From positions 1-33,540 of the forward strand of contig JACOTM010000062.1 in the NCBI GenBank assembly GCA_016178305.1: 33,540 nucleotides of DNA. Direction: 5' to 3'. The notes beneath the pieces are model-generated. The model saw only the letters and a program-made list of their open reading frames with translations, made no database searches and was not told the DNA's origin. Position numbers and translations under genes: made by a program. The number at the start of each line of letters is the position of its first letter. Within the stretch, counting starts at the first letter, position 1. Of the stretch, positions 2,507 through 33,540 are shown piece after piece. Source of the DNA: Flavobacteriia bacterium. Its GTDB lineage: Bacteria; Bacteroidota; Bacteroidia; Flavobacteriales_D; Crocinitomicaceae.

Positions 2507-3361
2507 TTATGCTTCTTCTTCAATAATTTCATTTTCATCATTCACTTGTTTCAAACGCTCAGCATAATCTTCTGGTAAGAATTCGAAAAAAGTATCACCT
2601 CTTAATCCTAGTCTTAAGCATTCTAATGGAATAATATCATTTGGAGCTATATTTCCTAAATTTACATTTTGACCAAAAAGTTTAATAAACCATACTTGTT
2701 GGTTTTTTTGAGGAGCTTCCCAAAGAATATTTCCAGGATCAACTTTTGCAATAATTTTATTAATAAGATAAGTATGTGCTGTTCCATTTGGTCTAAATAC
2801 ACCTACATTTCCAGCTTCACGACCTTCTGCGATTACTTTCCATGAACCAGCTTCCAATTCGGTACTCATCATTTTTACCCATTTTGTAGGTGATACAATA
2901 ATCCCCGAATCTTTCGAACCTACTTCTGACATTACTGTTCTGGTTTTTGAAAGGCGACTAATTAATTTGCATTTTTCATCATGATCCATAATGATTGAAC
3001 CATCCGAAATTTCAGCTAAATCTAAATTATATTTATCTAATAAACGGACATAATCTTCAAATTTTCCTCTTGCATGAAAAGCTTCGAATAATGTACCTCC
3101 CAAATAAGGTCTTATGCCAGCTGATTTATATAAATTAATTTTTTCTTGAAAATCGTTTGTAACATAAGCTGTACCAAATCCAAATTTGACAACATCAGTC
3201 AAATGAGCAGAAGCTTGAATAAAATTTTCTGTTTCTCGAAGACTTAAACCTTTGTCCATCATCATAGTTAGACCAGTTTGACGAGGCTTTACAATTCTTT
3301 CAGGTATATATGGTAATTCAAAATTCATAATTTCATCTATATTGGGTGCTAATTTACACAT
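2507..3361 (-). CDS. comA: Phosphosulfolactate synthase-like protein (ComA family)
   Basis: The 284-residue product is full length for the ComA family, a TIM-barrel that adds sulfite to phosphoenolpyruvate to give phosphosulfolactate. Recognisable blocks are RQTGLTMMMDKGLSL (about 27-41), VVKFGFGTAYV (57-67), PYLGGTLFEAFHARGKF (85-101), LAEISDGSI (about 114-122), SEVGSKDSG (145-153) and VIAEGREAGNVGVF (about 176-189). In methanogens the product leads to coenzyme M. Bacteroidota lack that pathway, so sulfolactate or sulfonolipid precursor supply is a more likely role, but this is inference. Homologues usually begin near MNFELP, so ATG 3328 (residue 12) is a serious alternative start. This is the first gene of a three-gene operon with a promoter-like element 55 bases upstream. 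Confidence 0.8.
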   Translation of the reverse strand: MCKLAPNIDEIMNFELPYIPERIVKPRQTGLTMMMDKGLSLRETENFIQASAHLTDVVKFGFGTAYVTNDFQEKINLYKSAGIRPYLGGTLFEAFHARGKFEDYVRLLDKYNLDLAEISDGSIIMDHDEKCKLISRLSKTRTVMSEVGSKDSGIIVSPTKWVKMMSTELEAGSWKVIAEGREAGNVGVFRPNGTAHTYLINKIIAKVDPGNILWEAPQKNQQVWFIKLFGQNVNLGNIAPNDIIPLECLRLGLRGDTFFEFLPEDYAERLKQVNDENEIIEEEA

Positions 3362-8612: not shown

Positions 8613-8634
8613 TTGAATAAGGTTTAAAAATTAT

Positions 8635-11289: not shown

Positions 11290-11329
11290 AAGTTTTATCG
11301 TATTAGAAAGAATCTAAATAGTGTTTTAA

Positions 11330-11713
11330 TTATTTAATGAATTCATAAATTTTAGCGATTAAGTCCCTAGCATCATAAGGTTTTGAAATATAATCATTCA
11401 TACCAGAATCCAAACATTTTTGTCGAACATCTTTAGTGACATCTGCAGAAACGGCGATAATCGGAGTTGTAGAATTATTTTGAATATCAATTTCTCGTAT
11501 TTTAATACTCGCTTCATATCCAGTCATTTCAGGCATCATTAGATCCATTAATATGACATGATAATTTCTATTGCTGTATGCTTCAACCGCTAACAAGCCA
11601 TTTTCAACTAAGTCAATATCAAATCCTTCTTTTTCTAGTATTGTTTTAATTAATAACTGATTTATTGCATTATCTTCAGCTACTAGTATCTGTATGTTTT
11701 TGTAATTTGCCAT
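11330..11713 (-). CDS. Stand-alone CheY-like response regulator receiver
   Basis: The 127-residue product is a single receiver domain: acidic pair in LVAEDNAINQ (about 10-19), phosphoacceptor Asp57 in ILMDLMMPEMTG, a Thr/Ser position in AVSADVT, and Lys in SKPYD. There is no output domain. It closely resembles the receiver of the 835-residue kinase (LMDLMMPEM, GMNDYI.KP), so it may be a phosphate shuttle or sink between the kinases, as in Fix-, Spo0F- or CheY-like relays. It lies between two kinase genes (33- and 40-base gaps), supporting a shared operon. Its target could be an HPt protein, which is not encoded here, or direct protein binding. Confidence 0.9.
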   Translation of the reverse strand: MANYKNIQILVAEDNAINQLLIKTILEKEGFDIDLVENGLLAVEAYSNRNYHVILMDLMMPEMTGYEASIKIREIDIQNNSTTPIIAVSADVTKDVRQKCLDSGMNDYISKPYDARDLIAKIYEFIK

Positions 11714-11746
11714 TTGCTTTTTTTCTAGGTTTCGTTCGAAAAATTT

Positions 11747-12841
11747 TTAAGTATTTGTTTTTTCAAATGGAATAATAAATGAAAAAGTAGAACCTTTATT
11801 TAATTCACTTTCAACAAAAAGTTTTCCATTTAGTGCTTCAACTGTTTTTTTTACAATCGTTAATCCGAGTCCTGAACCAGATTTTTGATAATCACTTTTA
11901 TTTAATTGATAAAATGCGTCAAATATGGACGTAATATTTTCTTTAGATATCCCGATTCCATGGTCTGTTAAAGTAAATTCTATTAATTCATGTTCTTTTG
12001 TTTGACTATGTGATTTACAATTTAACTCAATAACTCCTCCAATCGGCGTGAATTTGATAGCATTATGTATTAAGTTTGAAAAAATTTGATTCAATTTAGT
12101 CTCATCTCCAATTAATTTTGTATTAATAGTTGGGTCAATTGTATAATTAAATTTAATTTTTTTTAATAGAATATAATCGTTAACTGAGTTGATAAGTTTT
12201 GGAATATAATTATATAAATTAATTAGGTTATCTTGAATGTTGTAATTACTTGAATTTAAGTTATTTATCTCTGTTATATTGTTAACGATAGCTAAAAGAA
12301 TTTCACTTGACTTTACGATGGTTTCAATATGCTGTTTGCTCTCGATTGTGAGTTCTTGATTTTGGGATAGAAGATTTGAAAATCCGATAATTCCATTCAA
12401 AGGTGTTCGAATTTCATGACTCATATTCGACAAGAATTCATCTTTTGATTTTGCTAATAATTCAGCCTTTTTTTGTTCTTTTAGTAATTGTAAATTAGTT
12501 TTTTCAAGTGCTTCTTTTGATACCATTGCCCCTTTTAATTCTTCTATATAAGTATTGAAGCCCATACATATTACATCAAGTTCATCTTGCTTTTCGGAAA
12601 TAGGTAATTGGTTAAAAAAATTTCCTCCAATACATTCTAAGATATGCTCAATAATTAATGATTCTCGACGTCGTTGTTCGGTGTACTTAGCTTCAAAATG
12701 TGAAATTTCTAATAATATATCTTCAATTGAATTTCCTTGAGTAATTTGCACATTAAATTCGTCATGATACAAGCTTCTAATCTTAGATAATATTTTAGCT
12801 ATTTTATCAGACATTGGATTGTTTTTGTTTTCTAAGCTCAT
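11747..12841 (-). CDS. Cytoplasmic histidine kinase with HAMP-like N-terminus, no receiver
   Basis: The 364-residue product has no membrane helix. The N-terminus is helical, with a HAMP-like stretch at about 67-102 (GGNFFNQLPISEKQDELD then FNTYIEELKG), a coiled-coil linker, and HisKA with His142 in [15 protein letters not shown]. The C-terminal HATPase (about 235-360) has NAIKFTPIGG, DHGIGIS and GSGLGLT. No PAS or receiver domain is present, so it probably passes phosphate to the stand-alone receiver encoded next. The ATG at 12841 lies inside the STAS-like gene (35-base overlap). A second ATG at 12814 overlaps the STAS stop by 8 bases and would remove nine poorly conserved residues; either start is possible. 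The STAS partner may feed directly into the HAMP-like region (inference). Confidence 0.87.
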   Translation of the reverse strand: MSLENKNNPMSDKIAKILSKIRSLYHDEFNVQITQGNSIEDILLEISHFEAKYTEQRRRESLIIEHILECIGGNFFNQLPISEKQDELDVICMGFNTYIEELKGAMVSKEALEKTNLQLLKEQKKAELLAKSKDEFLSNMSHEIRTPLNGIIGFSNLLSQNQELTIESKQHIETIVKSSEILLAIVNNITEINNLNSSNYNIQDNLINLYNYIPKLINSVNDYILLKKIKFNYTIDPTINTKLIGDETKLNQIFSNLIHNAIKFTPIGGVIELNCKSHSQTKEHELIEFTLTDHGIGISKENITSIFDAFYQLNKSDYQKSGSGLGLTIVKKTVEALNGKLFVESELNKGSTFSFIIPFEKTNT

Positions 12842-13196
12842 TTAACCATTCAACCGCATCTTTTTTATCTTTGAAAGCTTTAACAGGAATCTTTACTTTT
12901 TTAATTTTTAAAAATGTATTATATAAAAATAACGTAAGGTGTGAATTGACAACAATAGATGAAGCGATTAGTAAGTTTTGGCCATACTTTTCGCCATAAT
13001 CTCTAGCTTCTTTCGTCATGCTTTTTAAATTACATATATCGTAACAAAAATATTGCGGGTTACCGTTAGAAATTGTTTCGCGCAACATATATATATCTTT
13101 AGAATTTTCTAAGGTCATATTAAAAGGTTGTTTATATTCACTAAACAAAATTCCATCTTCTATCCAAAAACGTATATGTTCATTCTCTAAGTTCAT
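12807..13196 (-). CDS. STAS / SpoIIAA-like protein (DUF7793 type)
   Basis: The 129-residue product resembles the STAS/SEC14-like proteins of Flavobacteriia annotated as DUF7793. It has a start with FWIEDGILFSEYK (about 10-22), the block YFCYDICNLKSMTKEARDYG (about 49-68), a hydrophobic strand LLIASSIVVNS and an end of VKAFKDKKDAVEWLNEL. There is no membrane segment. It is the first gene of the signalling operon, and its 3' end overlaps the kinase gene, so the pair is probably made in fixed ratio. STAS-fold proteins commonly act as binding partners that switch kinases or sigma-factor regulators; here control of the adjacent kinase is inferred from context only. The family match is by motif memory, not by search. 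Confidence 0.7.
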   Translation of the reverse strand: MNLENEHIRFWIEDGILFSEYKQPFNMTLENSKDIYMLRETISNGNPQYFCYDICNLKSMTKEARDYGEKYGQNLLIASSIVVNSHLTLFLYNTFLKIKKVKIPVKAFKDKKDAVEWLNELRKQKQSNV

Positions 13197-19577: not shown

Positions 19578-22500
19578 ATGCTGAAAAAAGGAGTTTTATT
19601 TTTTGGATTTTTACTAATTACAATATTTTCATTTTCACAATCATATCCAACAGATAGAGAGAAATTTGTAAAACAGTTTCAAAAAGTTTTGCAAGAATAT
19701 GGAAAAGGAGATTTTCATGATTTTGCAAAGAGAGATTTACCTCATAGTTTATTAGAATCTACCGATTTCTCGAATGATTATTTCAATCGTTTGGTTGTGA
19801 CTTGTAATTTGATGGAATCTAAAAGAATGGATCCTTATCCTGAAATTTATAATTATGTCTATTCCGTATATTGTTTTGTGCAAAGAAAACAATCCAATGT
19901 AAGTTATAATGCATGGCACAGTTCAGTGGATAAACTTTTAAATTTAAAAGATACCCGAAAGATTACCGATTTTATGGAATTTTCAGCAGGATTTTTCTCG
20001 AAAAATTTAATAGCAGAATCCTCTAATTTTAATTGGTTTTATTATGGAGGGAGTTATTCTTTTGAATTTACAGACAAACCATTTATACGTTTTTCAGGTG
20101 GTAATTTAGCTTGTCGTGTAGATAATAGAGACAAAGATTCCAAAGAATTATATATTGATAGTTCGGTAATTTTCTTAACATCTGGAGTTTACGACCCAAT
20201 TTTAAAAAAATGGGAAGGTGAAAAAGGCGTTGTGACTTGGGAAAAAGTAGGTTTATCTAAATCTGAAACAAATGCTCAGTTGTCTAAATATGAAATTTTA
20301 TTAAAGACATCAACTTTTTCAGCTGATTCTGTATTATTGACAACACCCTATTTTACAAAAAAAATTATGGGTAAATTATCAGACAGAGCATTTAAAATAA
20401 ATAGAGATATAGATAAAATTTACCCTCAATTTATATCGTATGAAAAAAGATTGACAATTAAGAATATTCGTCCGGATGTTGATTATGATGGAGGCTTTTC
20501 ATTGCAAGGAAATAATTTTGTAGGTGTTGGTTTTCCTGATAATCCTGCAAAAATGATAATTTACAGAAATGCTAGTCCATTCATTTATGCTAGTTCACAA
20601 CAATTTACAGTTGCCCCCCGAAGAATTACATCAAGTACAACAGGTATAAAATTAGTATATAATATAAAAGATTCAATATATCATCCTGGAGTAGATTTTG
20701 TGTATGATTTAGATAAAAAAATGGTGGAGATGACGCGAACAAAATCAGGTGTTGGGCAATCACCATTTGGCGATTCATACCATCAGTTAGATATGTTTAT
20801 GCCGAAGCTGACATGGAATACGGAATCAACAGATTTGATCGTAACCTATGAAATAGGAACATCTCAAGAGCAAAGAATAGCACGTTTAGAATCTAAAAAT
20901 TATTTTGACGAAAAATTATATGATTATTTGCAAGGAATGGAGGCTGTTCATCCATTGGTTGCTATTTCGAAATATTGTCATAAATACGATGAATATACAT
21001 TAAATGAAGGAAAAATAGCAACAGCATTGAATAAAACAATTGAGCAGGCAAAACCTTTAATGTTGGAATTATCAACTTATGGCTTCATTTCGTATGATTC
21101 CGAAACCAAAATGGTTACAGTCAATAAAAAAACAATGAATTTTGTTGAATGTAAAGCAGGAACAAGAGATTTTGACAATTTAGTTTTTATATGTGATTTC
21201 AAGCCTAAAGAATTAAAAGGTTATACTGAAGAGCAATTAAAACAAGATGCTTATTTACGTGAAATACAAAAAGAATTTCTTGAAAAAACTGAAAAAAGAA
21301 GGATGATGACAACATTCGCCTCCATCAGTTTATCGACTTTAGATATACATGCAAATGCAATTGATGCGGTTGTTATTTCGGAAAAACAAAATACAATCGT
21401 TTTTCCAGTAGGAAATGAAGTTACAATTAAACAAGATCGTAATTTCGAATTTGGTGGTTGGGTTAATTGTGGTAAGATGGAGATTGATGCAATCAATGCA
21501 ACATTTGTTTATAAAGACTTTAAAATCGCTTTATTAAAAACTGATAAGTCAACATTTCGTTTAACACCATTATCTGAAAAAGATGGTAAAAAACCTATTG
21601 GAATGTTAAGTAGCATCTCAGGAATTGTAGGTGATATTTATGTTGATAATCCTTTAAATAAAGCAGGTATTTCAAAAAATTACACAGACTTTCCCAAATT
21701 AAAATCGGTTAAAAATTCTTTTGTTTATTATAATTCAAAAGCAATTTTGAGAGGAGCGTATGATAGTACTCGTTTTTATTATACTGTTTTCCCTTTTGAT
21801 ATTGATAGTTTAGATAACTTTTTTGAAAAAGGATTTCATATTGTAGGTGAATTAACTTCCGCTGGAATTTTTCCTAAAATTAAACAAGATTTAGTGATTA
21901 TGCCTGATTATTCATTTGGATTTTCAACGAAAGCACCTCCTGAAGGATATGAATTTTATGGAACGAAAGCGAAATACGATAATAAAATAATATTGTCAAA
22001 TAATGGATTGCAAGGCGCTGGGCAAATTGATTTTGTTAAATCGAGTTCTACATCAATAGATTTATTTAATTTTTTACCAGACTCTTGTATCGGTTATGCT
22101 AAATTTGTAAATACCCCTGTTGAGTCTGGAATTCAATTTCCAGATGTAAATTGTAATATAGCTTATATTACTTATATTCCAAAAAGCAATTTATTGAAAG
22201 CTGCTTCAACAGCAAGAAATGAATTAGCAATGTTTAAAGGTGAAGCTAAATTAAGTGGAACAATTTTCGTTCGAAATGAAGGCTTAAGAGGAAAAGGTAA
22301 TATTGATATGAAAACAGCCGAAATCTTCTCTTTTGATTTTAAATTTAAACGATGGGATGTCGATGCGGATACGGCAGAATTTAATCTGAAAAATACGCAT
22401 ATTGAAGAGGGAGAAGAGGAGATGGCATTTAAATCTTCAAATGTAAAATCTCATATTTCTTTTGCTGACAGAAAAGGAGAATTTATTTCAAATGATGGAA

Positions 22501-24200
22501 CTTCTTTGGTTACTTTTCCTAATAACCAATACATCTGTAAAATGGATAAGTTGAATTGGTTAATGGATAAAGAATCGATAGAAATTGAAACAAATGCAGG
22601 AGAAGAAGCTTTAGCCAATAATGATTTAAATTTAGTTGGACCCAATTTTTTCTCGGTGCATCCCAAACAAGATTCTTTGCAATTTAGAGCTCCAAAAGCA
22701 TTTTTTAGCTTGAACGACAAAACGATTTATTGCTCAAAAGTCGAATTTATAGATGTTGCTGATGCGCGAATTTATCCAGACAGCATGAAGTTAACAATTC
22801 GTAAAAAAGCAAAGATGGATCCTTTAACAAATGCTAAAATTGTTGCCAATTACATAACACAATATCATAAATTTATTAAATGTGATTTAGAAATTACAGC
22901 TAGAAGAGCTTATACAGGGAAAGGGATTTATCCTTATTATGACTTGGATAGTATGTTAACAAATTTCACTATGGACAGAATCTTTTTAGATTCAACTTTT
23001 CAAACAGAAGCAAGGGGTAAAATAGCAGAAGATGCTAAATTTTATCTAAGTAAGCAATTTGACTATTATGGAGATGTAACAGTTAAAGCGGCAATTCCAA
23101 CAATCATTTTTACAGGGGCAACTCGTATGAATCATACTTGCGAAAAATTCCCTAGAGCTTGGATTGCATTTAGTGCAAAAATTGATCCCGCTAATATTCA
23201 AATCCCAATCGATGCAAATATGAAAAGTATTGATGGAAAAGCAATTACTTCAGGAATTATTTGGAGAGATTCTAGAAGTTTAGATAGTATTAAATTATAC
23301 CCAACTTTTTTATCTCCAATGGCTGATCCAAATGACCCGGCAGCTATGACAGCAAGTGGATTACTTCAATACAATGTTGATGCAGGTGAATTTCAAATTT
23401 CTTCAAAAGCGAAATTAGCTAATAGGGCTGAGAAAGGAAATTATATTGCCTTACATACCGAAAGTTGTTCGATGAATGGAGATGGGATAATTAATCTAGG
23501 TATGGATTTTGGTGAAATTGTAAAAATTGATGCTGCAGGAACAGTAAATTATAACCAATCAACAGGAAAAACATCAATAAATGCAACCGTAAGATACTTT
23601 TTTCCGTTCGATAAAGGATTGATGGAATCGATTGCTACAAAAATAAATGCTGTTGAAGGTTTAAAACCGATGGAAATGAGCTCAACTTCTTTGGAAGAAG
23701 CTTTGGTGGAATGGTCTGATCGTAAGACAGCAGATAAAATTAAATCAGATTATACTTTAAAAGGTGAAATTTCGAAATTACCTTCAGAAATGGAAGCAAC
23801 AATTACAATTACAGGAATTACAATTTCTTCATTTGATGATGTTAAAATGCAGGAAAAGGGATTGATTTCAATTTCAGAAAATGCAGTTTTATTAAACATG
23901 TATGAAAAGCCTGTATTGAAAATTGTTCCTATCAAAGCTTTTTATCAACAAATTTATTCGGGAAATGGCGGAGATAAATTTGGTTTATTCATTAATATAC
24001 CTGGAGGAAGAGATTATTATTTTGATTATTCCATGGAGAAAAAAGATGGATTACTTCGTGTAATTACGGGAGATGCTGAATTAGAAGCTGCTGTAACTGC
24101 AATTAAAGAAGATAAGAGAAAAGCAAAAAATTATAAATATGAAATGACCAATCAGAAAATATATTTAAGTAAATTTTTAAGATTATTTGGAGGAGAGTAA
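19578..24200 (+). CDS. Large exported protein of unknown family, 1540 residues
   Basis: I do not recognise this protein. It begins with a clear signal peptide (1-20, FLLITIFSFS then Gln21), has no later membrane helix and no T9SS sorting domain, and ends LRLFGGE, so it is probably periplasmic or outer-membrane associated. Residues about 22-170 look helical. About 455-535 form a compact helix-then-strand module, vaguely winged-helix-like. From about 640 to 1450 it is strongly beta-rich, with short alternating strands and repeated ILRGAYDS-, LRGKGNIDM- and TARRAYTGKG-like segments that suggest a beta-solenoid or long beta-taco, loosely like LptA/OstA or AsmA-type lipid conduits (inference). It sits 15 bases after prmA, and its last codons form the plsY ribosome binding site, so it is expressed with phospholipid synthesis. 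Confidence 0.85.
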   Translation: MLKKGVLFFGFLLITIFSFSQSYPTDREKFVKQFQKVLQEYGKGDFHDFAKRDLPHSLLESTDFSNDYFNRLVVTCNLMESKRMDPYPEIYNYVYSVYCFVQRKQSNVSYNAWHSSVDKLLNLKDTRKITDFMEFSAGFFSKNLIAESSNFNWFYYGGSYSFEFTDKPFIRFSGGNLACRVDNRDKDSKELYIDSSVIFLTSGVYDPILKKWEGEKGVVTWEKVGLSKSETNAQLSKYEILLKTSTFSADSVLLTTPYFTKKIMGKLSDRAFKINRDIDKIYPQFISYEKRLTIKNIRPDVDYDGGFSLQGNNFVGVGFPDNPAKMIIYRNASPFIYASSQQFTVAPRRITSSTTGIKLVYNIKDSIYHPGVDFVYDLDKKMVEMTRTKSGVGQSPFGDSYHQLDMFMPKLTWNTESTDLIVTYEIGTSQEQRIARLESKNYFDEKLYDYLQGMEAVHPLVAISKYCHKYDEYTLNEGKIATALNKTIEQAKPLMLELSTYGFISYDSETKMVTVNKKTMNFVECKAGTRDFDNLVFICDFKPKELKGYTEEQLKQDAYLREIQKEFLEKTEKRRMMTTFASISLSTLDIHANAIDAVVISEKQNTIVFPVGNEVTIKQDRNFEFGGWVNCGKMEIDAINATFVYKDFKIALLKTDKSTFRLTPLSEKDGKKPIGMLSSISGIVGDIYVDNPLNKAGISKNYTDFPKLKSVKNSFVYYNSKAILRGAYDSTRFYYTVFPFDIDSLDNFFEKGFHIVGELTSAGIFPKIKQDLVIMPDYSFGFSTKAPPEGYEFYGTKAKYDNKIILSNNGLQGAGQIDFVKSSSTSIDLFNFLPDSCIGYAKFVNTPVESGIQFPDVNCNIAYITYIPKSNLLKAASTARNELAMFKGEAKLSGTIFVRNEGLRGKGNIDMKTAEIFSFDFKFKRWDVDADTAEFNLKNTHIEEGEEEMAFKSSNVKSHISFADRKGEFISNDGTSLVTFPNNQYICKMDKLNWLMDKESIEIETNAGEEALANNDLNLVGPNFFSVHPKQDSLQFRAPKAFFSLNDKTIYCSKVEFIDVADARIYPDSMKLTIRKKAKMDPLTNAKIVANYITQYHKFIKCDLEITARRAYTGKGIYPYYDLDSMLTNFTMDRIFLDSTFQTEARGKIAEDAKFYLSKQFDYYGDVTVKAAIPTIIFTGATRMNHTCEKFPRAWIAFSAKIDPANIQIPIDANMKSIDGKAITSGIIWRDSRSLDSIKLYPTFLSPMADPNDPAAMTASGLLQYNVDAGEFQISSKAKLANRAEKGNYIALHTESCSMNGDGIINLGMDFGEIVKIDAAGTVNYNQSTGKTSINATVRYFFPFDKGLMESIATKINAVEGLKPMEMSSTSLEEALVEWSDRKTADKIKSDYTLKGEISKLPSEMEATITITGITISSFDDVKMQEKGLISISENAVLLNMYEKPVLKIVPIKAFYQQIYSGNGGDKFGLFINIPGGRDYYFDYSMEKKDGLLRVITGDAELEAAVTAIKEDKRKAKNYKYEMTNQKIYLSKFLRLFGGE
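24189..24197 (+). promoter_or_regulatory. Shine-Dalgarno sequence deciding the plsY start
   Basis: GGAGGAGAG lies 4 bases before the ATG at 24202 and is formed by the Gly-Gly-Glu codons that end the previous gene. Strong Shine-Dalgarno sites are uncommon in this window. The site supports ATG 24202 over the upstream in-frame TTG at 24187, which would start inside the site itself. Confidence 0.6.
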
Positions 24201-24201
24201 A

Positions 24202-24819
24202 ATGAATTTTTTAATTTTTAGTGGAATCGCTTATTTGCTTGGTTCAATTCCAACTGCTGTTTGGATTGGAAAAAGTTGGTATAATATCGATGTTAGAGAA
24301 CATGGAAGTAAGAATGCTGGTGCGACCAATACTTTTCGTGTTTTAGGAAAAAAACCTGGTATTATTGTCCTTTCAATAGATGTGTTGAAAGGATTTTTTG
24401 CTGTTTATATTCCTGTCTTTTTTATTCAATATTCTGTAAATGATGAATTAGTAAAGCTTCAAATTATTGCAGCTATTTTGGTTGTATTAGGGCACGTATT
24501 TCCTTTGTTTGCAAATTTTAAAGGAGGTAAAGGTGTAGCGACTTCGCTTGGAGTTGTTTTTGGCATTCATCCTCCCGCGGCAACTGTCTGTTTATTGGTT
24601 TTCTTATTAGTTTTTATAATATGTAATTATGTATCATTAGGAGCTATTGTGGCTGCGATTATTTTTCCTTTTGTGTTAAAATTTGTTTTTGCCGTTGAAT
24701 CCATTTGGTTATTATTATTCAGTGTCGTACTGAGTTTAGCAGTAATTATTACGCATCGAAAAAATGTAACGCGATTATTACATGGTCAAGAAAATAAAAT
24801 GAACCTTTTTAAAAAATAA
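24202..24819 (+). CDS. plsY: Glycerol-3-phosphate acyltransferase PlsY
   Basis: The 205-residue inner-membrane protein transfers acyl groups from acyl-phosphate to glycerol 3-phosphate, the first step of phospholipid synthesis. The three PlsY motifs are present: GSIPTAVWIGK leading to HGSKNAGATNTFRVLG near the N-terminus, GHVFPLFANFKGGKGVAT in the middle, and HRKNVTRLLHGQE at the end, separated by five to seven membrane helices. I use ATG 24202 because it gives the usual N-terminus and has a Shine-Dalgarno site. The stop of the 1540-residue gene is one base before it (TAA, a, ATG), so translation is coupled. The giant gene follows after 32 bases with no hairpin between. Confidence 0.95.
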   Translation: MNFLIFSGIAYLLGSIPTAVWIGKSWYNIDVREHGSKNAGATNTFRVLGKKPGIIVLSIDVLKGFFAVYIPVFFIQYSVNDELVKLQIIAAILVVLGHVFPLFANFKGGKGVATSLGVVFGIHPPAATVCLLVFLLVFIICNYVSLGAIVAAIIFPFVLKFVFAVESIWLLLFSVVLSLAVIITHRKNVTRLLHGQENKMNLFKK

Positions 24820-24851: not shown

Positions 24852-27800
24852 ATGCTGAAATTTTTAAAAATTATGTTTTTTTCTTTGTTCTGTTTGTTTC
24901 ATCTTGGGACTTACGGTCAAACGACTATTGAAACAAAGGAAACAGCAGATAAGTTTTTTGAAAAAGGTCAGTTTATTGAAGCAACTCCATTGTATATGAC
25001 TTTGTTAACTTCTAATCAGAGAGATTTTGATGTTAATTTTAAATACGGGGCTTGTTTACTCTACTCAGCTAATAAGAGATTAGACGCCTTTAAATATTTA
25101 AATTATGCTATTACAAGCGAGACTGTTGACCCACGAGCTTTTTATTATCTTGGAAAAGCACAACATTTAAATTATCAATTTAGTGAAGCTATTATTAATT
25201 ATAAAAAATATAAAACTAAAGCAACAACAAATTTAGATAAAAATTTGGATGTCGATAGGCAAATATTGATGTGTGAAAATGGTAAACGTTTGATGACAAC
25301 CATCACAGATTTAGTTGTTCAGGAAAAAAAAGAAATGACTTTGGATAAATTTTACCAGTTGTATAATCTTCAAAATATTGGTGGTGATTTTTTAGTTACG
25401 AGTGATTTTCAATCGAAAATAGATAAAAAAAAGGAACATACTCCTTTGATTCATTTCCCTAAAAGCAAGTCAGTTTTTTATTATTCTAGTTATGGAGATG
25501 ATGATAAATCAGGAAAAGATATTTATATCAGAAGGAGATTACCTACTGGAGAATGGGGATTACCGCAAAAATTAGCCGGAGGTGTTAATACTGAATTTGA
25601 CGAAGATTACCCTTTTTTTCATACTGGCGACAATTATTTATATTTTAGTTCCAAAGGACATAATTCAATGGGAGGTTATGATGTGTTTAGATCTAAATAT
25701 GACCCAGAAACAAACTCTTTTGGACCTGCGGAAAATATGGATTTTGCAATTTCAACACCAGCTGATGATATGTTGTATATTGTCGATTCTTTAAATCAAA
25801 ATGCTTACTTTAGTTCGAATAGACAAAGTCAATTAGGAAAAGTTTTTGTTTATAAAGTTCTTGTTGAAAAAGTACCATTGCAATTGTCTGTCGTTAAAGG
25901 AACTTTTTATAATTCAATTAACCCGGATAATAAAAAAATATTTATCGAAGTTCGAGATTATGCCAATGGTGATATCGTTGGAAATTTTAATTCAAATGAA
26001 AAAGGAATTTACTTAATACCTTTTCCAAAAGGAGGAAAATATGAATATTCAATTCGAGTTGAAGGTAAACCAGATATTTATAAAACGATTGTTTCTATCC
26101 CATTTTTGAAAGAATTTAAACCTTTAAAACAAAAAATTACAGATGAAATTATAGGTGAAAACGAAGTTGTTAAAGTAATAGATTTATTTAATGAACAAGT
26201 TGAAGATATTTCAGATGTAATGGCTATTGTAGTGAAGAAAAGAGCTGAATTAGCACCAAATGCAGATCAGTTTGTCTTACATAAAGAAATTGCGTTAGAT
26301 ACTAAAATATTAAATGAATTAGGTATTGGTAATTATAAATTAAATGAAGTTTCTGATTTATTAGATAAAGAAGTTAATGAAGCTCAAGAAGCGGCTAAAA
26401 AATCAGAAGATTTAAATAATAAAATAAATTACCAAACGCTTGAGATTTTAGAGAAAGTTAATTTACTTGATTTGGCAATTAAGGATAAAGTAGCTCAAGC
26501 TGATAAAACTGAAAATCCAGATGCAAAGTATTTATTAATGAAATCTGCTGAAAGTTTAACTGTAAAGCAAGAATTATTACGTGAAAAAGCGAGAGAAGAC
26601 ATGAAATATGCAGATTCTCTTGCTAAATTACCGAATGCATCTAACGTAAAAAAAGCGAATGATTTAATAGAGATTCAAAAACAATATCAAATATTGATAA
26701 ATGAAAATAAAGAGCAAGAAGCTTTGACACTTTTATCAGCGAATAAAGAATTATTGAAAAATGTAATTCAATCTAAATCAAACGACGAATTACAAATTTT
26801 AATAGACCAGAGTTTAACTTTACAGGAAGAAATAGATGCTTTGAAAAAGAAAGATAATTCCTATTTAGAAAATATAACGGCACTAAATAAAGCAAATATA
26901 GCGTTAGAACAATCAAAAACTACGGCTAAAAGTAAAGAAATTGCAAATATTGATGCTAAAATTAGAGCGAATAATTCTGAAATTGAATTAATTAGGTCTG
27001 AAAAGAAAATCATTGAAAATAAATTAGAAACAAAAGGAAATACTTATATACAAACAAGTGAAAAAATAGATAAACTCCAATCGATTTCTACAATAAAAGA
27101 TTCTAAAATAATTTCAAAAGAGGAAGCAAATAAAGCATTAAACTCATTAGAAACAACAAATTCAAATACTTTAAAAGCATACGTTGCTCTTCAACTTTCA
27201 GAATTAGAAAAGTTAAAGCCTGAGTTGAAAAAAGAGGAATTAGTAGAAAACAAGGAAGTTATAAATATTGATAAAAATTACGCTTCAAAATTAAATGAAA
27301 TTGAGTCAAATCTAAATTTAAATGAAAAAGATAAAAATACACTTAAAAATCAATTGAATTCAGATCTTATTAAAAATATAGATGTAAAATTAAATGAAAT
27401 TAATCAAAAATTGAGTGCTGATCCAACAGATCAAAAATTACTAAATGCTAAAACGAATCTACAAACTTTAAAAAATAAAGTTCAAGAAAACATTGATAAC
27501 ACAACTGATTTAATTAATACTTCAAATACAACTACAAACACAACAACTGCGACAAATTCTAATAACGGTTCAAATGGTACGTTAAACACAGCATCGAATA
27601 CGACGGCAACAGGTACTAATACAACGACAAACACAACCGCTTCGACAAATTCTAATAACAGTTCGAATGGTACGTTAAACACAGCATCGAATACGACGGC
27701 AACAGGTACAAATACAACGACAAACACAACTGCTTCGACAAATTCAAATAACGGTTCAAATGGTACGTTAAACACAGCATCGAATTCAGATGCAATATCT

Positions 27801-30800
27801 CAAGAAGAAGTATTAACATTTATCAATTCAATTTCGCCAACATATAAGTCTAACATTTCATCTATTGAAAACGAAAATAATTTATCTGATATTGAGAAAA
27901 ATCAAAGAATAATAGATGAAAATCAAAATTTAATTCAAAAATTAAATCAATTAAAGACTGAAAATAATGTTGAATTATCTAAATCACCAACAAATAAAGA
28001 ATTCATTCAAAAAGATGAAATTATAGATAGAGCAATTACTGATATTTCTTTAGAATTGAATAGAAAAAAAGAAGCGTTGAAGAATTTGGCTTCAACTTCT
28101 TCAAATAATCAATTTTCAGAATCAAAATTAATTGAAGAAATAGAGCCAAATTATAATCGTAAAATAGAAGAAATTTCAAAAGATGTTAGTTTATCAGAGT
28201 CTCAAAAGCTTAAATCAATTCAAAAAGAGGATGAAAATTTAATTGCCAATATTGATCTTTCAATTTCTAAATTAGATAAAGAATTAGAAACGAATTCAGA
28301 TAAAATAACAATTTCAAAAAAAGAAAATTTAATTCAGTTAAAATCGACCATTGAGGAGCAAATAAAACAAAGAGAAATTCAAATCAAAGAAAAAGTAACA
28401 GCAGAAAATTTTTCAATCATTTCAAAAATGGATGAAGATGAAAAAAAAGGATTAATAGAAAAATTAAGAATTGAAAATTTAGGTTCTAATTCAGACGAAG
28501 TGAATAAAGAATACGCTACTTCCGAGGAATTAAAAAAGCAACAAAATTTATTTGAAACATACGAAGCAAAAATCAAAAAAGAAATTCTGTTGGTAAACTC
28601 TCAAATAGAGAATAATGAGAATCTTGAATTACAAAAAAAGAAATTTATTCTCGATGAAGAATTAAAGTTGATAGAGGATAAAAAAGAAGTTATTAAAACA
28701 AATTTAAAAGCAATTGAAAGTAATACGACAGAGATAACATCGAATAATACAATGAATTCTTCAAATTTTGTCGTTACTGAAAAAGAAATTCAAAAAGTGA
28801 TTTCTTCTTTAAATCCGAATTATGAAGTTGCAATTAAAACGATTGAATCAAATTCAAATTTAACCCCAACTCAAAAAGCAGAAAAGGAATTTAGCGAAGA
28901 AAGTAAAATGTTGAATGCTTTGACAACATTGAAAGCATCAAATCAACAGCAAATTTCAAATTCACCGAATAATCAGGAGTTGAAAAATAAAGCCTTGACT
29001 ATTGAAAAAGCAATTGCTGAAGTGAAAAATTTGTATATTGAAGATTCTAAAACAATTGTCTCAAATCAAAAAGCAAGTTTTGATGTTTTAACAAATGAAA
29101 TCCAACCAACTTATTCTGATAACAAAACATCTATAATTTCAAATTCTTCTCTAAACGAAATTGAAAAGTTAGAAGAATTACAAAAAATAGATGCGCAATT
29201 AACTTCTAAAATAGACTCAAAATTAACTGAAATTAATGCACAGTTAAAAGAAAAAGAAACTCCTGAATTGGAAGCGAAACGCCAACAATTAGAAATTCTT
29301 AAAACGGCAACAGAAGAGAATGTTGCGAACAGAGAAAAATCATTAGAGACGAAAAAACAATTAGCAACTAATCTTACTTCAAAAAAATCTGATAAATCCA
29401 ATAATAGTTTAAACGAATCAGAAGTAAAAGAAGTTATTCATTCAATTAATCCAAATTATGAAGCTACAATTGCCGCAATAGAAACAAATTCCAATTTAAC
29501 TGAAACAGAAAAATTAGAGAAAATTGTTTTGGAAGAACAAAAAATGCTTAATGCTTTACAAAAAAGAGAAACTTCAAACAAGCAACAATTAGCAGTTTCC
29601 CCGAATGATTTGGAATTAAAAAATAAAGCTGAGGTTCTTGAAAAAGCATTGACAGCTATAGATTCAAAATTACAGAACAATTCAGCTGAATTACGATCTG
29701 TAGATTCTAAAAAATACAAACAATTAGCGGATAATGTTTTACCAAATTATTCTTCGACAATTGAGACTATTCAATCAAACAATAGTTTAACCGCAGCAAG
29801 TAAAACGAATGCAATTCAATTGGAGAATAAAAAATTAGTCGCTGCAATTGATCTTCAGTTGAATGAAATTAATAAGCAATTAAAATCGAATCCAACAGCA
29901 GAATTGGAAGTAAAAAAATCGGAATTAGAAGTATTGAAAGTAACTACAAATAATGCAGTTGCAAATGGTAATCAATCCAAAGAAGTTGTATCAAATACTT
30001 CTTCCAGTACACTTGCATTGCAAAATGTGACTAATGAAAACGCATCTTTAAGTGATTCTGATGTAAAGGAAATTGTAAAATCGATTGATCCTAATTTTGA
30101 TGCGAAGATTAAAAACATTCAATCCAATGTGACGCTCAATGCTAATGAAAAATTAGAAAAAATAATTGCAGAAGAAAATAAAATGTTGAATTCATTAACA
30201 GAATTAAGCATTCAAACAACAACTAATTTTACGGCAGACCCTTCTAATTCAGAATTGAAAAATAAAGCTCAAGCAGTTGATAATGCAGTTGTAGCGGTTC
30301 AGAATGAAATGAAAGTGGATGCTGTACAAATTACAAAACAAAACAAAACAAAATTTGAAGCGATATCCAATGAAGTTTCACCCGATTATTCTCAAAACAT
30401 TCAAACAGCACAGTCGAGCTTAAATCTAAGTGAAGTTGAAAAATTAAAAGCAATCCAACAAGAAGATAAAAAATTATTGAATGCTTTGTCAAACTCAATT
30501 TTAAGTATTGAAAAACAACTTCAAAATAGTTCGTATCCAGCGTTAATAGCTAGGAAAAATGATTTAGAAATATTGAAATTAGCAACAGCATTAAACATAG
30601 AGAAAAGAGAATCTTTAATAATTTCAAACACAGCTGTAGCATCAAATTCTGCGAATCAAAATGTGTTGGATCAAAAAGCAGATTTAACGGATCCAGCAGT
30701 GAAAACAGTAATCAATTCAATTAATCCAAATTTTGAAAATAACATTCAAGAAATTGCTTCTAATTCAAATTTAACTTCTTCAGAAAAAATTGAAAAAATT

Positions 30801-33540
30801 GTAGTAGAAGAGGAAAATATGTTAAAAGCGTTGAATCATTTGAATCAATTAACAACAAGTGAATTAGCAAAAAATCCAAATGATACAGCATTAAAAGAGA
30901 AATCTGTTTCGATAGAAAAAGCAATATCGATTATTGCGACTGATAAATCTGAAAAAGACAAGGTTATTACAGTTGCAAAAGCTCCGATTACAACAACGGA
31001 AATAATTTCAACAATTAGTCCAACATATACTGAAAATGTTGCTTCGATTGAGTCAAACTCAACATTAAGTGAAGTTGCAAAATTGAAAGCAATTCAGCAG
31101 GAAGATACAAAATTGATTAGAGAAATTGATACTAAAATAAATCAGTTAGAAAAACAGATTCAAACGAATCCGACTTCAGAATTAGTGAATCAAAAAGAAA
31201 AATTAGAATCGATAAAATCAGAGAAAGAGGAAGCTTCACTAGAGAGAGCTCAATTAATTTCTTCAAAAGAAAATGTTGTTCAAAATAAGGAAACTGAGAC
31301 TGCTGTTTTGGATATGATTTCGGAAGTTAAACCAAATTATTCTGAAAAAGTAAAATCAATTAATGAAAGTAGTGACAATCCATCGAAAAAAATAGAAAAT
31401 TTAATCAAAGAAGAGAAAGATTTAATTTCGAAACTTGAAAGCGTGAAGTCTAAAGATGAATCAGTTGTAAAGAAAGATCCAGCAAATGAAGAAAAAAAGC
31501 AGGAAATTACTACAATTGAAAAAGCAATTCAGCAATCAGAAAGCAAAGTAAATACATTAACAAATGATTTAGTACAAACTGAAGTGAATGCAATTGATCC
31601 CGTTCAGTTGATTACAAAAGTAGATGAAAAATACACGGATGAAATTACTGCAATTGAACGTTTGAATAGTTCAACAAAACAAGCAGATTTGATTGCAAGG
31701 GAAACTGAATTACAACAAAAAATTGCAGAAAAAATAGCTTCAAATTCGAAACAAATTGAGAAGTCGGGAAGCATTTCTTTAAAAGCAGAAAACACAGTAT
31801 TAGCACAACAATTAGATGCAAGTAAAAATAGGGTAGAAGCTTTAAAAGAAGCTGACATCGTAAACCCTATAAATTCAGAAAACGTTTCAGAAAACAAAGT
31901 AGCATCTTTGGAAATTCGTCAATCAATTTTAGGAAGTAATTCTGTAGAAGTTGAAAAAACTTATACGACATTAGATGAACTGAAAAAGCAGGATGTAATT
32001 TTAGCAAACTACGAGCAAACTTTGGTGAATCAATTAGATGAAGTGACAAAAGAATTAGAGAAAAATTCTCAAAATTCAAATTTAATAGAACAAAAAATAT
32101 CATTAGAAGAAGAAATTAAATTGGTTCAAAATAAGCGCAAAGCAGGTAGAATTACAATTGGAGAATTGGAACGTGTGGCGGTAGTAAAATCGGATGAACA
32201 GATTCAAATTGAAAATTTACAAACTGAAAATGATTTATTAAAACAAAAAGCTCAGAATCCAGATTTAACTTCAAAACAAAAAGCTTTAATAACGAAGGGA
32301 ATTAGTCAAAATGAAAAACAACAAAATGAGTTAACGACAATTGTTGTTACAAATACGCTAACTAAAGAACAAGAAGAAAATAAACAAAAAACAACTCAAA
32401 TTATTCCATTATCGAATTCTTCAAATTCTATAGTTGCAGTTGCACAAACCCAAAATACACGATTGACATCGGAAGTTGAAATTTTAGTAAATAAAGCAAA
32501 AGACACCAAAGATGCTGAAGAAAAAAATTATATTTTAACTCAAGCATTAGATAAGCAAGTTCAGGCAAATGAAATTATTGAAAATGCTTTAATTGACAAT
32601 GCAATTCAAGTTGCTTCAAACAATGAAATAGCATCTTTATATACGAAAGAGGAGTTGGAGCAAAAAAAACGTAGATATACGATTCAGATAGGTGAATTAA
32701 CTTCTGAGATTCAATCATTAGATGCGCAAATTAATGCAACTAAGCCGAATAAAGCAAGCAGTTTAATTCAAAAAAGAGATGAATTGATAACTCAACAAGA
32801 GCAATTAAAAGTAGAAGTTTCAAGAATTGAGAAACAACTTTCTGGTGAAAAAGTTACAACCGTTTCCACAATTAATAAAAAAGCAATTGAAGAAGCAATA
32901 ACCTATAAAGAAGAGAATGAAATTGCTCAAACAGATGTGTACAAGTCGTATGTTCAAAGTGTTAGTAAAGCTTTAGTGACGGAGAAAAAAATTACAGTAT
33001 TAAATAATGAATTAGAAGAACAAAGAGTCGTAGCGAAGCAATTAATTAAGACTTCAATTGATAATCCAAGTGAAGCAAATAAAGATGCTGTAAAGGAACA
33101 ATTACATTTGATAAAATCAGGGGAAACAGCAAAAGAAGTTTTAGAAAACCAATTAAAAATAGAGCAAACAGAAGCGAATGGGATATTGCTTCAGAACGAA
33201 GGTGTTTCTATGAAAATGCAGAATATGGCTCAACGAGGAGTACTACCAGTTGATAAACAAGAATTGATTGCGAAATTGGTGCCACTTCCAGCTTCTGGTT
33301 TAGAAATTAAAACAGATGTGAAGCGAAGTGACGTGTTTATTCCAATTCCAGTAGATGTAAAAGAACCAAACGGGTTAGTTTATCGTGTTCAAGTTGGGGC
33401 ATTCTCTAAGCCAATACCACAAGATTTATTTAGTTCATTCAATCCCGTTTCTGGTGAAAAAATTGCGAATACTTCGATTACAAGATATATGGCTGGTTAT
33501 TTCAATGGAGCAGGTAAAGCTGTTGAAGCACTAACATTGA
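24852..33540 (+). CDS. Giant exported TPR-PD40-coiled-coil-SPOR protein, 3' end outside window
   Basis: One frame stays open from ATG 24852 to the window end (2896 codons and one base, no stop). A signal peptide (1-22, then Gln23) is followed by TPR-like helices (about 25-115) and a PD40 propeller (about 195-336; SYGDDDKSGKDIYIRRR, YLYFSSKGHNSMGGYDVFRS, AYFSSNRQ). Next comes a carboxypeptidase-regulatory-type beta sandwich (about 342-417). About 2400 residues of Lys/Glu/Asn/Gln-rich helix then include alternating repeats and a Thr/Ser/Asn linker. A SPOR-like domain starts near residue 2840 (YRVQVGAFSKP, then TRYMAGYF). The front half has the domain order of PorE and other OmpA-type envelope proteins, but a long helical arm and SPOR replace the OmpA domain. 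It probably spans the periplasm and binds peptidoglycan (inference). It is probably cotranscribed with plsY. Confidence 0.88.
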   Translation, partial: MLKFLKIMFFSLFCLFHLGTYGQTTIETKETADKFFEKGQFIEATPLYMTLLTSNQRDFDVNFKYGACLLYSANKRLDAFKYLNYAITSETVDPRAFYYLGKAQHLNYQFSEAIINYKKYKTKATTNLDKNLDVDRQILMCENGKRLMTTITDLVVQEKKEMTLDKFYQLYNLQNIGGDFLVTSDFQSKIDKKKEHTPLIHFPKSKSVFYYSSYGDDDKSGKDIYIRRRLPTGEWGLPQKLAGGVNTEFDEDYPFFHTGDNYLYFSSKGHNSMGGYDVFRSKYDPETNSFGPAENMDFAISTPADDMLYIVDSLNQNAYFSSNRQSQLGKVFVYKVLVEKVPLQLSVVKGTFYNSINPDNKKIFIEVRDYANGDIVGNFNSNEKGIYLIPFPKGGKYEYSIRVEGKPDIYKTIVSIPFLKEFKPLKQKITDEIIGENEVVKVIDLFNEQVEDISDVMAIVVKKRAELAPNADQFVLHKEIALDTKILNELGIGNYKLNEVSDLLDKEVNEAQEAAKKSEDLNNKINYQTLEILEKVNLLDLAIKDKVAQADKTENPDAKYLLMKSAESLTVKQELLREKAREDMKYADSLAKLPNASNVKKANDLIEIQKQYQILINENKEQEALTLLSANKELLKNVIQSKSNDELQILIDQSLTLQEEIDALKKKDNSYLENITALNKANIALEQSKTTAKSKEIANIDAKIRANNSEIELIRSEKKIIENKLETKGNTYIQTSEKIDKLQSISTIKDSKIISKEEANKALNSLETTNSNTLKAYVALQLSELEKLKPELKKEELVENKEVINIDKNYASKLNEIESNLNLNEKDKNTLKNQLNSDLIKNIDVKLNEINQKLSADPTDQKLLNAKTNLQTLKNKVQENIDNTTDLINTSNTTTNTTTATNSNNGSNGTLNTASNTTATGTNTTTNTTASTNSNNSSNGTLNTASNTTATGTNTTTNTTASTNSNNGSNGTLNTASNSDAISQEEVLTFINSISPTYKSNISSIENENNLSDIEKNQRIIDENQNLIQKLNQLKTENNVELSKSPTNKEFIQKDEIIDRAITDISLELNRKKEALKNLASTSSNNQFSESKLIEEIEPNYNRKIEEISKDVSLSESQKLKSIQKEDENLIANIDLSISKLDKELETNSDKITISKKENLIQLKSTIEEQIKQREIQIKEKVTAENFSIISKMDEDEKKGLIEKLRIENLGSNSDEVNKEYATSEELKKQQNLFETYEAKIKKEILLVNSQIENNENLELQKKKFILDEELKLIEDKKEVIKTNLKAIESNTTEITSNNTMNSSNFVVTEKEIQKVISSLNPNYEVAIKTIESNSNLTPTQKAEKEFSEESKMLNALTTLKASNQQQISNSPNNQELKNKALTIEKAIAEVKNLYIEDSKTIVSNQKASFDVLTNEIQPTYSDNKTSIISNSSLNEIEKLEELQKIDAQLTSKIDSKLTEINAQLKEKETPELEAKRQQLEILKTATEENVANREKSLETKKQLATNLTSKKSDKSNNSLNESEVKEVIHSINPNYEATIAAIETNSNLTETEKLEKIVLEEQKMLNALQKRETSNKQQLAVSPNDLELKNKAEVLEKALTAIDSKLQNNSAELRSVDSKKYKQLADNVLPNYSSTIETIQSNNSLTAASKTNAIQLENKKLVAAIDLQLNEINKQLKSNPTAELEVKKSELEVLKVTTNNAVANGNQSKEVVSNTSSSTLALQNVTNENASLSDSDVKEIVKSIDPNFDAKIKNIQSNVTLNANEKLEKIIAEENKMLNSLTELSIQTTTNFTADPSNSELKNKAQAVDNAVVAVQNEMKVDAVQITKQNKTKFEAISNEVSPDYSQNIQTAQSSLNLSEVEKLKAIQQEDKKLLNALSNSILSIEKQLQNSSYPALIARKNDLEILKLATALNIEKRESLIISNTAVASNSANQNVLDQKADLTDPAVKTVINSINPNFENNIQEIASNSNLTSSEKIEKIVVEEENMLKALNHLNQLTTSELAKNPNDTALKEKSVSIEKAISIIATDKSEKDKVITVAKAPITTTEIISTISPTYTENVASIESNSTLSEVAKLKAIQQEDTKLIREIDTKINQLEKQIQTNPTSELVNQKEKLESIKSEKEEASLERAQLISSKENVVQNKETETAVLDMISEVKPNYSEKVKSINESSDNPSKKIENLIKEEKDLISKLESVKSKDESVVKKDPANEEKKQEITTIEKAIQQSESKVNTLTNDLVQTEVNAIDPVQLITKVDEKYTDEITAIERLNSSTKQADLIARETELQQKIAEKIASNSKQIEKSGSISLKAENTVLAQQLDASKNRVEALKEADIVNPINSENVSENKVASLEIRQSILGSNSVEVEKTYTTLDELKKQDVILANYEQTLVNQLDEVTKELEKNSQNSNLIEQKISLEEEIKLVQNKRKAGRITIGELERVAVVKSDEQIQIENLQTENDLLKQKAQNPDLTSKQKALITKGISQNEKQQNELTTIVVTNTLTKEQEENKQKTTQIIPLSNSSNSIVAVAQTQNTRLTSEVEILVNKAKDTKDAEEKNYILTQALDKQVQANEIIENALIDNAIQVASNNEIASLYTKEELEQKKRRYTIQIGELTSEIQSLDAQINATKPNKASSLIQKRDELITQQEQLKVEVSRIEKQLSGEKVTTVSTINKKAIEEAITYKEENEIAQTDVYKSYVQSVSKALVTEKKITVLNNELEEQRVVAKQLIKTSIDNPSEANKDAVKEQLHLIKSGETAKEVLENQLKIEQTEANGILLQNEGVSMKMQNMAQRGVLPVDKQELIAKLVPLPASGLEIKTDVKRSDVFIPIPVDVKEPNGLVYRVQVGAFSKPIPQDLFSSFNPVSGEKIANTSITRYMAGYFNGAGKAVEALTL
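27262..31720 (+). repeat. Alternating A/B helical half-repeats in the giant protein
   Basis: The translated frame contains about 13 diverged half-repeats of about 100-110 residues. A-type starts lie near 27796, 28776, 29410, 30051, 30690 and 31302, with consensus like EVKxVIxSINPNYE, IxSNSNLT, EKLEKI, EExxML and ELKNKA. B-type starts lie near 27262, 28120, 29080, 29718, 30354, 30996 and 31600, with PxYSxNI, SLSExEKLxAIQQED, KQLxxNPTxEL. A plus B make a superunit of about 211 residues (620-640 bp). Non-repeat coiled coil interrupts between B at 28120 and A at 28776. The repeats are diverged at DNA level, so they are old compared with the minisatellite. Confidence 0.75.
27525..27785 (+). repeat. 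93-bp in-frame minisatellite, about 2.8 copies
   Basis: The unit starting at 27551 recurs at 27644 and, partly, at 27737, a period of 93 bp or 31 codons; a 26-bp partial copy precedes it from 27525. Copies one and two differ at only 4 of 93 bases, and the 49-bp third copy differs from the first at one base, so the array is recent or homogenised. The encoded unit is a Thr/Ser/Asn/Gly linker (TNSNNGSNGTLNTASNTTAT and on), expected to be disordered, in the middle of otherwise helical sequence. Because the period is a multiple of three, copy number can change without a frameshift. Confidence 0.92.

Follow-up and report, generated by a model that had tools for sequence, protein, structure and literature searches.

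Attachment of the outer membrane to the cell wall in Bacteroidota is mostly known for OmpA-type anchors. SPOR domains prefer peptide-stripped (denuded) glycan at the septum, and those of FtsN, DamX and RlpA target septal glycan. PorE of Porphyromonas gingivalis is described as bridging the PorP barrel and peptidoglycan (PMC9143113, PMC7192894), and its propeller region is given as 269 residues, from 167 to 435 (PMC7192894). Here, a stretch of 33,540 nucleotides from a member of the Crocinitomicaceae (assembly GCA_016178305.1, contig JACOTM010000062.1; the whole stretch is referred to below as the window) was analyzed for a giant gene that runs into its 3' end. The predicted product, called the giant in this text, combines a PorE-like head with a very long helical middle and divergent SPOR domains at the far end. 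It seems to us somewhat probable that the giant is a PorE-like tether that spans the periplasm from the outer membrane to peptidoglycan, with SPOR as its anchor and a modular spacer in between.

Giant gene and its PorE-like head

The frame of the giant gene is stop-free from position 24852 on the plus strand to the contig end at 33540, in agreement with a preliminary description made from the letters of the window, which had read it as open for at least 2896 codons. Because the window is the entire contig (C32, in an assembly of 3.6 Mb and 124 contigs), the frame breaks off where the contig does. The closest relative that was found, L002 from a metagenome-assembled genome of the Crocinitomicaceae, has a complete frame of 3,037 amino acids (aa). 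When the last 423 residues of L002 were compared with the genome of the window, query residues 1-52 matched the window end at 69% identity, and query residues 53-420 matched the minus strand of another contig, C109, at 42% identity. The ends of the two contigs have about 15 bases in common with one mismatch, and an exact overlap is not present. From this homology, and not from reads, we infer that the giant gene continues on C109 and encodes a joined protein of 3,272 aa, so that the stop codon, which the preliminary description expected beyond position 33540, could be placed. The next gene after the giant on C109 is clpS (PF02617). The parts of the giant gene that lie in the window are as follows.

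24852..33540, plus strand: 5' part of the giant gene, 2896 codons; the rest is placed by homology on C109 (L067:4814 down to the stop at 3681, minus strand), 3272 aa in total
24852..24920, plus strand: predicted signal peptide, residues about 1-23 (ending in GTYGQ), without a lipobox; model helix 2-17, hydropathy, and a cleavage site chosen by eye
24924..25301, plus strand: predicted TPR domain, residues 25-150; AlphaFold2, structure match to the TPR of CHIP, profile matches to TPR chains in the PDB
25314..25862, plus strand: predicted short PD40 beta-propeller-like region, residues 155-337; PD40 matches in the family, model strands, invariant columns
25887..26183, plus strand: predicted Ig-like/CarboxypepD_reg-like domain, residues 346-444; model strands and PF13620 matches in relatives
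26199..27521, plus strand: first helical segment, residues 450-890, helical by sequence; 33.5% identity to L002 over residues 450-885
27522..27794, plus strand: N/T/S/G-rich linker with 31-residue (93-bp) in-frame tandem repeats; TRF 27523-27785, 2.8 copies, 92% match
27798..31865, plus strand: array of about 98-residue helical repeats, residues 983-2338, 12 strong copies; profile and pair model
31866..33365, plus strand: second helical segment, residues 2339-2838, helical by sequence; 36.6% identity to L002
33372..33539, plus strand: first 56 residues of SPOR1; C109 carries its remainder, SPOR2 and a divergent domain at the C-terminus

The giant's own sequence gave little by direct searches. 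Whole-protein scans with Pfam and NCBIfam returned weak sub-threshold names only, scans of pieces returned chance-like matches (BFN_dom, DksA-like), and no TPR, PD40 or SPOR was found over the Pfam cut-offs in the window protein. For PD40 (PF07676, cut-off 20.9 bits), the window's own copy scored 9.9 bits (E 0.97) and the copies of L002 and L012 scored 24.7 and 36.4 bits, respectively. A search of the PDB with the single N-terminal sequence yielded nothing useful. At the family level, the matches were clear: among 35 aligned N-termini, PD40 was matched at E ≤ 0.01 by 34, TPR_16 by 21, and CarboxypepD_reg (PF13620) by 16. The PD40 region contains a conserved motif, NTEFDEDYP...GHNSMGGYD(I/V)F, and has invariant columns in the family alignment. 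An independent head profile, made from the 32 of these N-termini that remain when the window, L002, and L003 are excluded, found window residues 15-445 at 468 bits.

An AlphaFold2 model of the head, built from the alignment, had a mean pLDDT of 77 and a pTM of 0.52. It showed a TPR superhelix at residues 25-150, strands at 155-337 with moderate confidence (pLDDT about 55-86 in the PD40 block), and an Ig-like sandwich at 346-444. The TPR part was superposed on the TPR of CHIP with a VIA Z of 17.2 and a root-mean-square deviation of 2.8 over 131 residues; the structure search with the head model was filled by TPR chains, and the propeller and CRD parts were barely probed by it. Taken together, the family profiles and the model indicate that predicted TPR, propeller, and CRD-like domains follow one another in the order of PorE, the membership of each domain being established through the family. 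The order of signal peptide, TPR, PD40, and beta sandwich given in the preliminary description was thus retained.

The signal peptide is the only 19-residue window over the hydropathy threshold in the window protein, and no further strongly hydrophobic stretch follows it at this window size. A lipobox pattern was found in one of 76 family N-termini (L119), two of the 78 frames having been dropped. Neither Por_Secre_tail nor a similar C-terminal sorting domain was matched by Pfam in the window protein or in its C109 piece, and the reading of the giant as a cargo of the type IX secretion system (T9SS) was rejected on this ground.

Head-type sequences also occur outside the giants. Downstream of the giant, L015, L018, and L025 contain PD40-type frames of at least 598 codons that are recognised by the head profile, and L018 has one more. 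In L127, a separate frame of 154 codons (start near 4160, plus strand) just upstream of the giant matches the head profile in part (E 2.5e-27).

Helical middle and SPOR tail

Residues 450-2838 contain no Trp, no Cys, and only 25 Gly in 2,389 residues, and a motif centred on [I/V]xPxY recurs in the middle of the giant at a spacing of about 100 residues. Twelve repeats between residues 983 and 2338 scored 67-98 bits against a profile made from these same 12 copies, and a weaker thirteenth was found at residues 802-889 with 31 bits. With a profile made only from L002 repeats, the array in the window scored 463 bits (E 7.5e-143), and 20 shuffled middles used as controls gave no listed match. In a two-repeat model built from 20 aligned pairs of the window, L002, and L003 (pLDDT 93, pTM 0.84), each repeat consists of two short helices and two antiparallel helices of 31-32 residues. 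Since folded repeats of about 98 residues are predicted in the array by this pair model, a single continuous coiled coil was rejected, and at least this part of the middle would be a chain of small bundles; the flanking segments are read as helical from their sequence. The coiled coil of about 2400 residues in the preliminary description therefore stood as a mostly helical stretch of about 2,390 residues and fell as one coil, given the N/T/S-rich linker and the repeat array, and its expectation of a bundled or spacer-like middle agrees with the helical bundles of the model.

Searches of solved structures with the repeat model gave no significant match (best Foldseek E 0.21), a result that does not show a new fold. 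The VIA Z was at most 9.5, which is in the chance range for helical bundles. With the repeat profile, designed coiled-coil proteins came first in the PDB (best E 5.7e-5), and the matches in Pfam were scattered and weak.

The repeat profile was positive at E ≤ 1e-3 in 12 of the 77 family frames, namely L002, L003, nine genome loci of the window's family, and L132 (family f51). L140, also of the window's family, has no repeat copies, and the remaining loci have different middles. The copy number is 13 in the window, 11-14 in L002, L128, L133, and L138, and 2-7 in seven other complete loci. Two further genomes of the window's genus have 14 copies, so that variation within the genus is small. In other genomes of the genus, four frames of 2,890, 2,955, 3,197, and 3,623 aa were found, together with four more of 631-1,309 aa, which may be cut by contig ends. 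Between the window and L002, identity was 69.5% in PD40, 59.8% in CRD, 66.7% in SPOR1, 56.2% in SPOR2, and 29.9% in the repeats. Conservation of PD40, CRD, and SPOR around a fast-evolving middle is the pattern that binding ends joined by a spacer would be expected to give.

The assignment of the tail was likewise made at the family level. A profile of 44 SPOR-like copies matched the SPOR domain of CwlC (1x60) in the PDB at E 2.2e-6; the second match, the lipoprotein chain 7adk_B (E 5.8e-4), was weak and in two pieces. The Pfam family PF05036 was matched at E ≤ 0.01 by 32 of the 44 copies (best E 4.7e-8), and the Gln of the VQIG motif and one Gly are invariant in all 44. A SPOR profile from the other 41 copies, with those of the window and L002 left out, found residues 2841-2926 of the giant at 88.0 bits and 2987-3073 at 96.6 bits. 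These results indicate membership of the SPOR family, the giant's own copies being linked to it through a profile that excludes them. The C-terminal SPOR of the preliminary description was confirmed in this way; searched with Pfam on the giant's own sequence, its PD40 and SPOR failed to appear, and in the family both were recovered.

Among the 77 family frames, 70 are complete, having their stop codon within the locus, and 65 of these 70 carry SPOR copies, two in 15 frames, three in 47, and four in three. After removal of three duplicates, the 62 complete SPOR frames span 1,806-3,623 codons from stop to stop (median 2,227). The same layout, which the preliminary description proposed to look for in other Crocinitomicaceae, was found in many families. 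Among the five exceptions, the frames of L011, L024, and L041 are broken, and their SPOR copies follow in the next frame (in L041, beside masked bases). By eye, the C-termini of the other two, L123 and L125, resemble a degenerate SPOR.

No OmpA was matched by Pfam in either piece of the giant, and one OmpA_C query (E ≤ 0.01) found none in the giant protein or in 78 frames (the family and one PD40 paralogue). The idea of an OmpA_C hidden elsewhere in the giant was rejected by the same query, and the absence of OmpA reported from the window holds for the joined protein as well.

A second protein of the same genome bears on the exchange of OmpA_C for SPOR. This protein of 416 aa (L069:2212-3459, G000:C31) consists of a signal peptide, an OMP_b-brl barrel, an acidic linker, and a SPOR domain at residues 319-404. 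Its SPOR is of the giant's kind (66.5 bits) and shares 39% identity with giant residues 2961-3080 (E 4e-25). In four of the five foreign barrel homologues that were fetched, the same linker leads into OmpA_C (E 1e-15 to 6e-11). Judging from these sequences, the barrel protein is the best evidence that the giant's SPOR type can stand in for OmpA_C. When it was compared with 60 family genomes, matches at E ≤ 1e-20 were obtained in 21; G046, G052, and G058 match the query only via the SPOR of their giant. The tail of the fifth foreign homologue, L141 (G043:C9:118400-120200), resembles another, more canonical SPOR weakly (10.7 bits, by eye), and is perhaps an independent SPOR exchange.

Neighbourhood, distribution and candidate functions

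In the window, the gene order is tpiA, prmA, the gene for a 1540-aa exported protein, plsY, and the giant gene. The two genes directly before the giant are as follows.

19578..24200, plus strand: exported 1540-aa protein, no Pfam family, probable operon partner; overlaps plsY
24187..24819, plus strand: plsY (glycerol-3-phosphate acyltransferase; PF02660, E 1.9e-56); ends 32 bases before the giant start

Neighbours were surveyed in 74 related loci, many of which have little flanking DNA, and seven neighbour proteins were scanned, with one member per M48, clpS, FloA, and NfeD cluster. Upstream on the same strand, a gene for a protein of about 1500 aa was found in 27 loci and a plsY homologue in 26, all 26 of which match the plsY of the window. 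Downstream of the giant, an M48 peptidase was found in 19 loci and clpS in eight. FloA (flotillin-like) and NfeD lie downstream in seven and eight loci, respectively (among L111, L113, L114, L115, L122, L031, and L125). The 1540-aa protein and two of its relatives had no Pfam match, and the PDB gave nothing credible for the 1540-aa protein; the protein of about 1500 aa was found in 322 of 395 Bacteroidia genomes and is thus near-core yet unannotated. Among the matches listed for the two genes (149 and 150 rows), 126 genomes occur in both tables. In 61 of these, with 12 family labels, the gene for the protein of about 1500 aa lies directly upstream of the giant on the same strand with a gap of 29-1473 bases, and the remaining 65 comprise 57 in which the two genes are on separate contigs and eight in which they share a contig at a long distance. 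Elsewhere in the window, three histidine kinases (two of them hybrids), a response regulator, and a DUF7793 protein are encoded on the minus strand at 6105-13196, and a gingipain-type peptidase C25 with a propeptide and a T9SS sorting tail lies at 3661-5919. On C109 past clpS (L067:523-3046), an 11-copy WG-repeat protein and a Kinase-PolyVal protein are encoded on the opposite strand.

Distribution was counted with the head profile at E ≤ 1e-60; these counts test the head, and SPOR was checked in the studied loci. The head was present in 85 of 100 genomes of the family (counted from a search run at 1e-40), in 216 of 299 genomes of the order, and in 181 of 395 genomes and 78 of 197 genera of the class Bacteroidia. 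In the phylum sample, an unrepresentative one that favours the most complete genomes, it was present in two of 247. Most genomes of the class sample have one match, and some have two to four. The T9SS marker SprA_N was present in 382 of the 395 class genomes, in 178 of the 181 with the giant and in 204 of the 214 without it. Of the 13 SprA_N-negative genomes, three (G614, G720, and G738) have the giant. Since SprA_N is found in so many giant-less genomes, the association is uninformative and T9SS does not need the giant. Judged by these gene counts, the giant is not a core T9SS part.

As a periplasmic tether, the giant would be exported by Sec and stay in the periplasm. Its TPR-PD40-CRD head would dock on an outer-membrane partner, by analogy with PorE on the PorP barrel, and its two or more far-end SPOR domains would bind wall glycan strands. 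The helical modules that separate head and tail would serve as a spacer, the length of which may vary among relatives via the number of repeats of about 98 residues. Because SPOR prefers denuded septal glycan, a septal or remodelling site would be the most likely place for the giant. Peptidoglycan binding, the docking partner, the location, and the function are in this sense what we infer for the giant.

Several observations weigh against this tether. As to membrane attachment, a lipobox pattern was not found in the window protein, unlike the lipoprotein PorE, and the relative L133 has a hydrophobic 19-residue stretch at 2577. At about 183 residues, the propeller region falls short of the 269 residues given for PorE in PMC7192894, and a PorP-type gene was not identified among the recurrent neighbours within the seven proteins scanned. 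The SPOR type is divergent, with a shortened first-helix region in the giant; PF05036 was not matched by 12 of the 44 copies, Pfam found no SPOR in the giant's own C109 piece or in the L002 tail, and the SPOR of L012 is below the curated Pfam cut-off (16.7 vs 21). L123 (1,685 codons) and L125 (1,192 codons) are complete frames with no recognisable SPOR. Identity between the window and L002 is low at some ends, namely 44.4% in signal plus TPR and 35.8% in the last C-terminal domain. With respect to the exchange of OmpA_C, barrel and SPOR were covered together only by the own-genome protein itself among the 60 genomes, and a second own-genome barrel homologue, L146 (G000:C41:4500-5800; 328 codons), ends in the linker with neither OmpA_C nor SPOR.

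Other functions were weighed against the same data. The two to four SPOR copies of most complete frames, together with the septal preference of SPOR, would also suit a division protein that is brought to septal glycan by SPOR and whose head recruits outer-membrane or wall factors in constriction, tethering being only the means. However, no division protein was found among the seven neighbour proteins scanned, and 214 of the 395 class genomes, which must also divide, are without a head match; we regard this role as unlikely. The recurrent neighbours could instead point to an envelope-building module made up of the giant, the upstream protein of about 1500 aa, and plsY, for example a scaffold or ruler that would cross the periplasm in lipid or outer-membrane assembly. 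The adjacency in 61 genomes with 12 family labels, plsY upstream in 26 loci, and the M48 peptidase downstream in 19 speak for such a module. On the other hand, the protein of about 1500 aa, present in 322 genomes versus 181 for the giant, is far commoner and therefore functions in its absence, plsY and clpS have housekeeping roles and may adjoin through operon history, and in 65 of the 126 listed genomes the two genes were not found together. A module of this kind is quite improbable in our estimation.

A role in T9SS or gliding, like that of PorE in Porphyromonas gingivalis, would be in line with the PorE-type head and with SprA_N in nearly all class genomes that have the giant. SprA_N is nearly as frequent where the giant is missing, and the sole T9SS sign among the scanned neighbours is a secreted Por_Secre_tail protein in one group; a T9SS role, which the preliminary description had put forward and which the counts weaken, is therefore rated very doubtful, and a core T9SS part was rejected. 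The split of the gene over two contigs could be taken as a sign of an assembly or gene-calling artefact, by fused frames, a frameshift, or a chimeric contig. This was rejected, and hardly any weight is left to it, because the same head and tail lie in one frame in 65 of the 70 complete relatives and because, in three of the five exceptions, the frame is broken and SPOR follows in the next one. The tether reading of the giant was preferred.

If the SPOR tether and the SPOR-bearing OmpA-type barrel are real, the wall-binding module would be exchangeable, and SPOR-based attachment would be directly testable. The repeat array, with 2 to 14 copies among relatives, would provide natural length variants with which the importance of tether length could be tested. 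A bolder idea is that the family is an adjustable envelope ruler that sets or senses the distance from the outer membrane to remodelled or septal peptidoglycan, that it forms one system with the protein of about 1500 aa, and that SPOR is generally used instead of OmpA_C for fastening the outer membrane to the wall; we put it forward as a speculation that is unlikely to hold as a whole.

Comparison with known systems

No description of the layout of a TPR-PD40-CRD head, a helical spacer, and SPOR was found in searches of an open-access library, nor was a characterised protein with the giant's layout, as the preliminary description had anticipated. This holds for a family that is widespread in Bacteroidia, usually with one copy per genome.

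In its repeats, the giant has at most a weak likeness to spectrin-type repeats, which serve as spacers and consist of tandem helical bundles, each about 100 residues long. The unit of two short and two long helices is unlike theirs, and the resemblance is weak: plectin repeats ranked 17 with a Foldseek E of 0.72, and a beta-spectrin chain was matched by the sequence profile at E 0.076. In its tail, the giant is like CwlC, FtsN, DamX, and RlpA, which share a C-terminal SPOR, as suggested by the profile matches to CwlC 1x60 and PF05036. These four proteins are not known to have a TPR-PD40-CRD head or a giant repeat spacer.

The closest described protein remains PorE. The genome of the window also encodes a PorE-like protein of 781 aa on another contig (C38), with PD40 and OmpA over the Pfam cut-offs. 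By the descriptions in PMC7192894 and PMC9143113, the giant is like PorE (PG1058) in being a predicted exported protein in which TPR, beta-propeller, and CRD-like domains precede a domain of a peptidoglycan-binding type. It is unlike PorE in that no OmpA_C was found, a lipobox is missing, and two or more SPOR domains form the tail, and in its spacer of about 2,390 residues, with which the giant reaches 3272 aa compared with about 670 aa for PorE.

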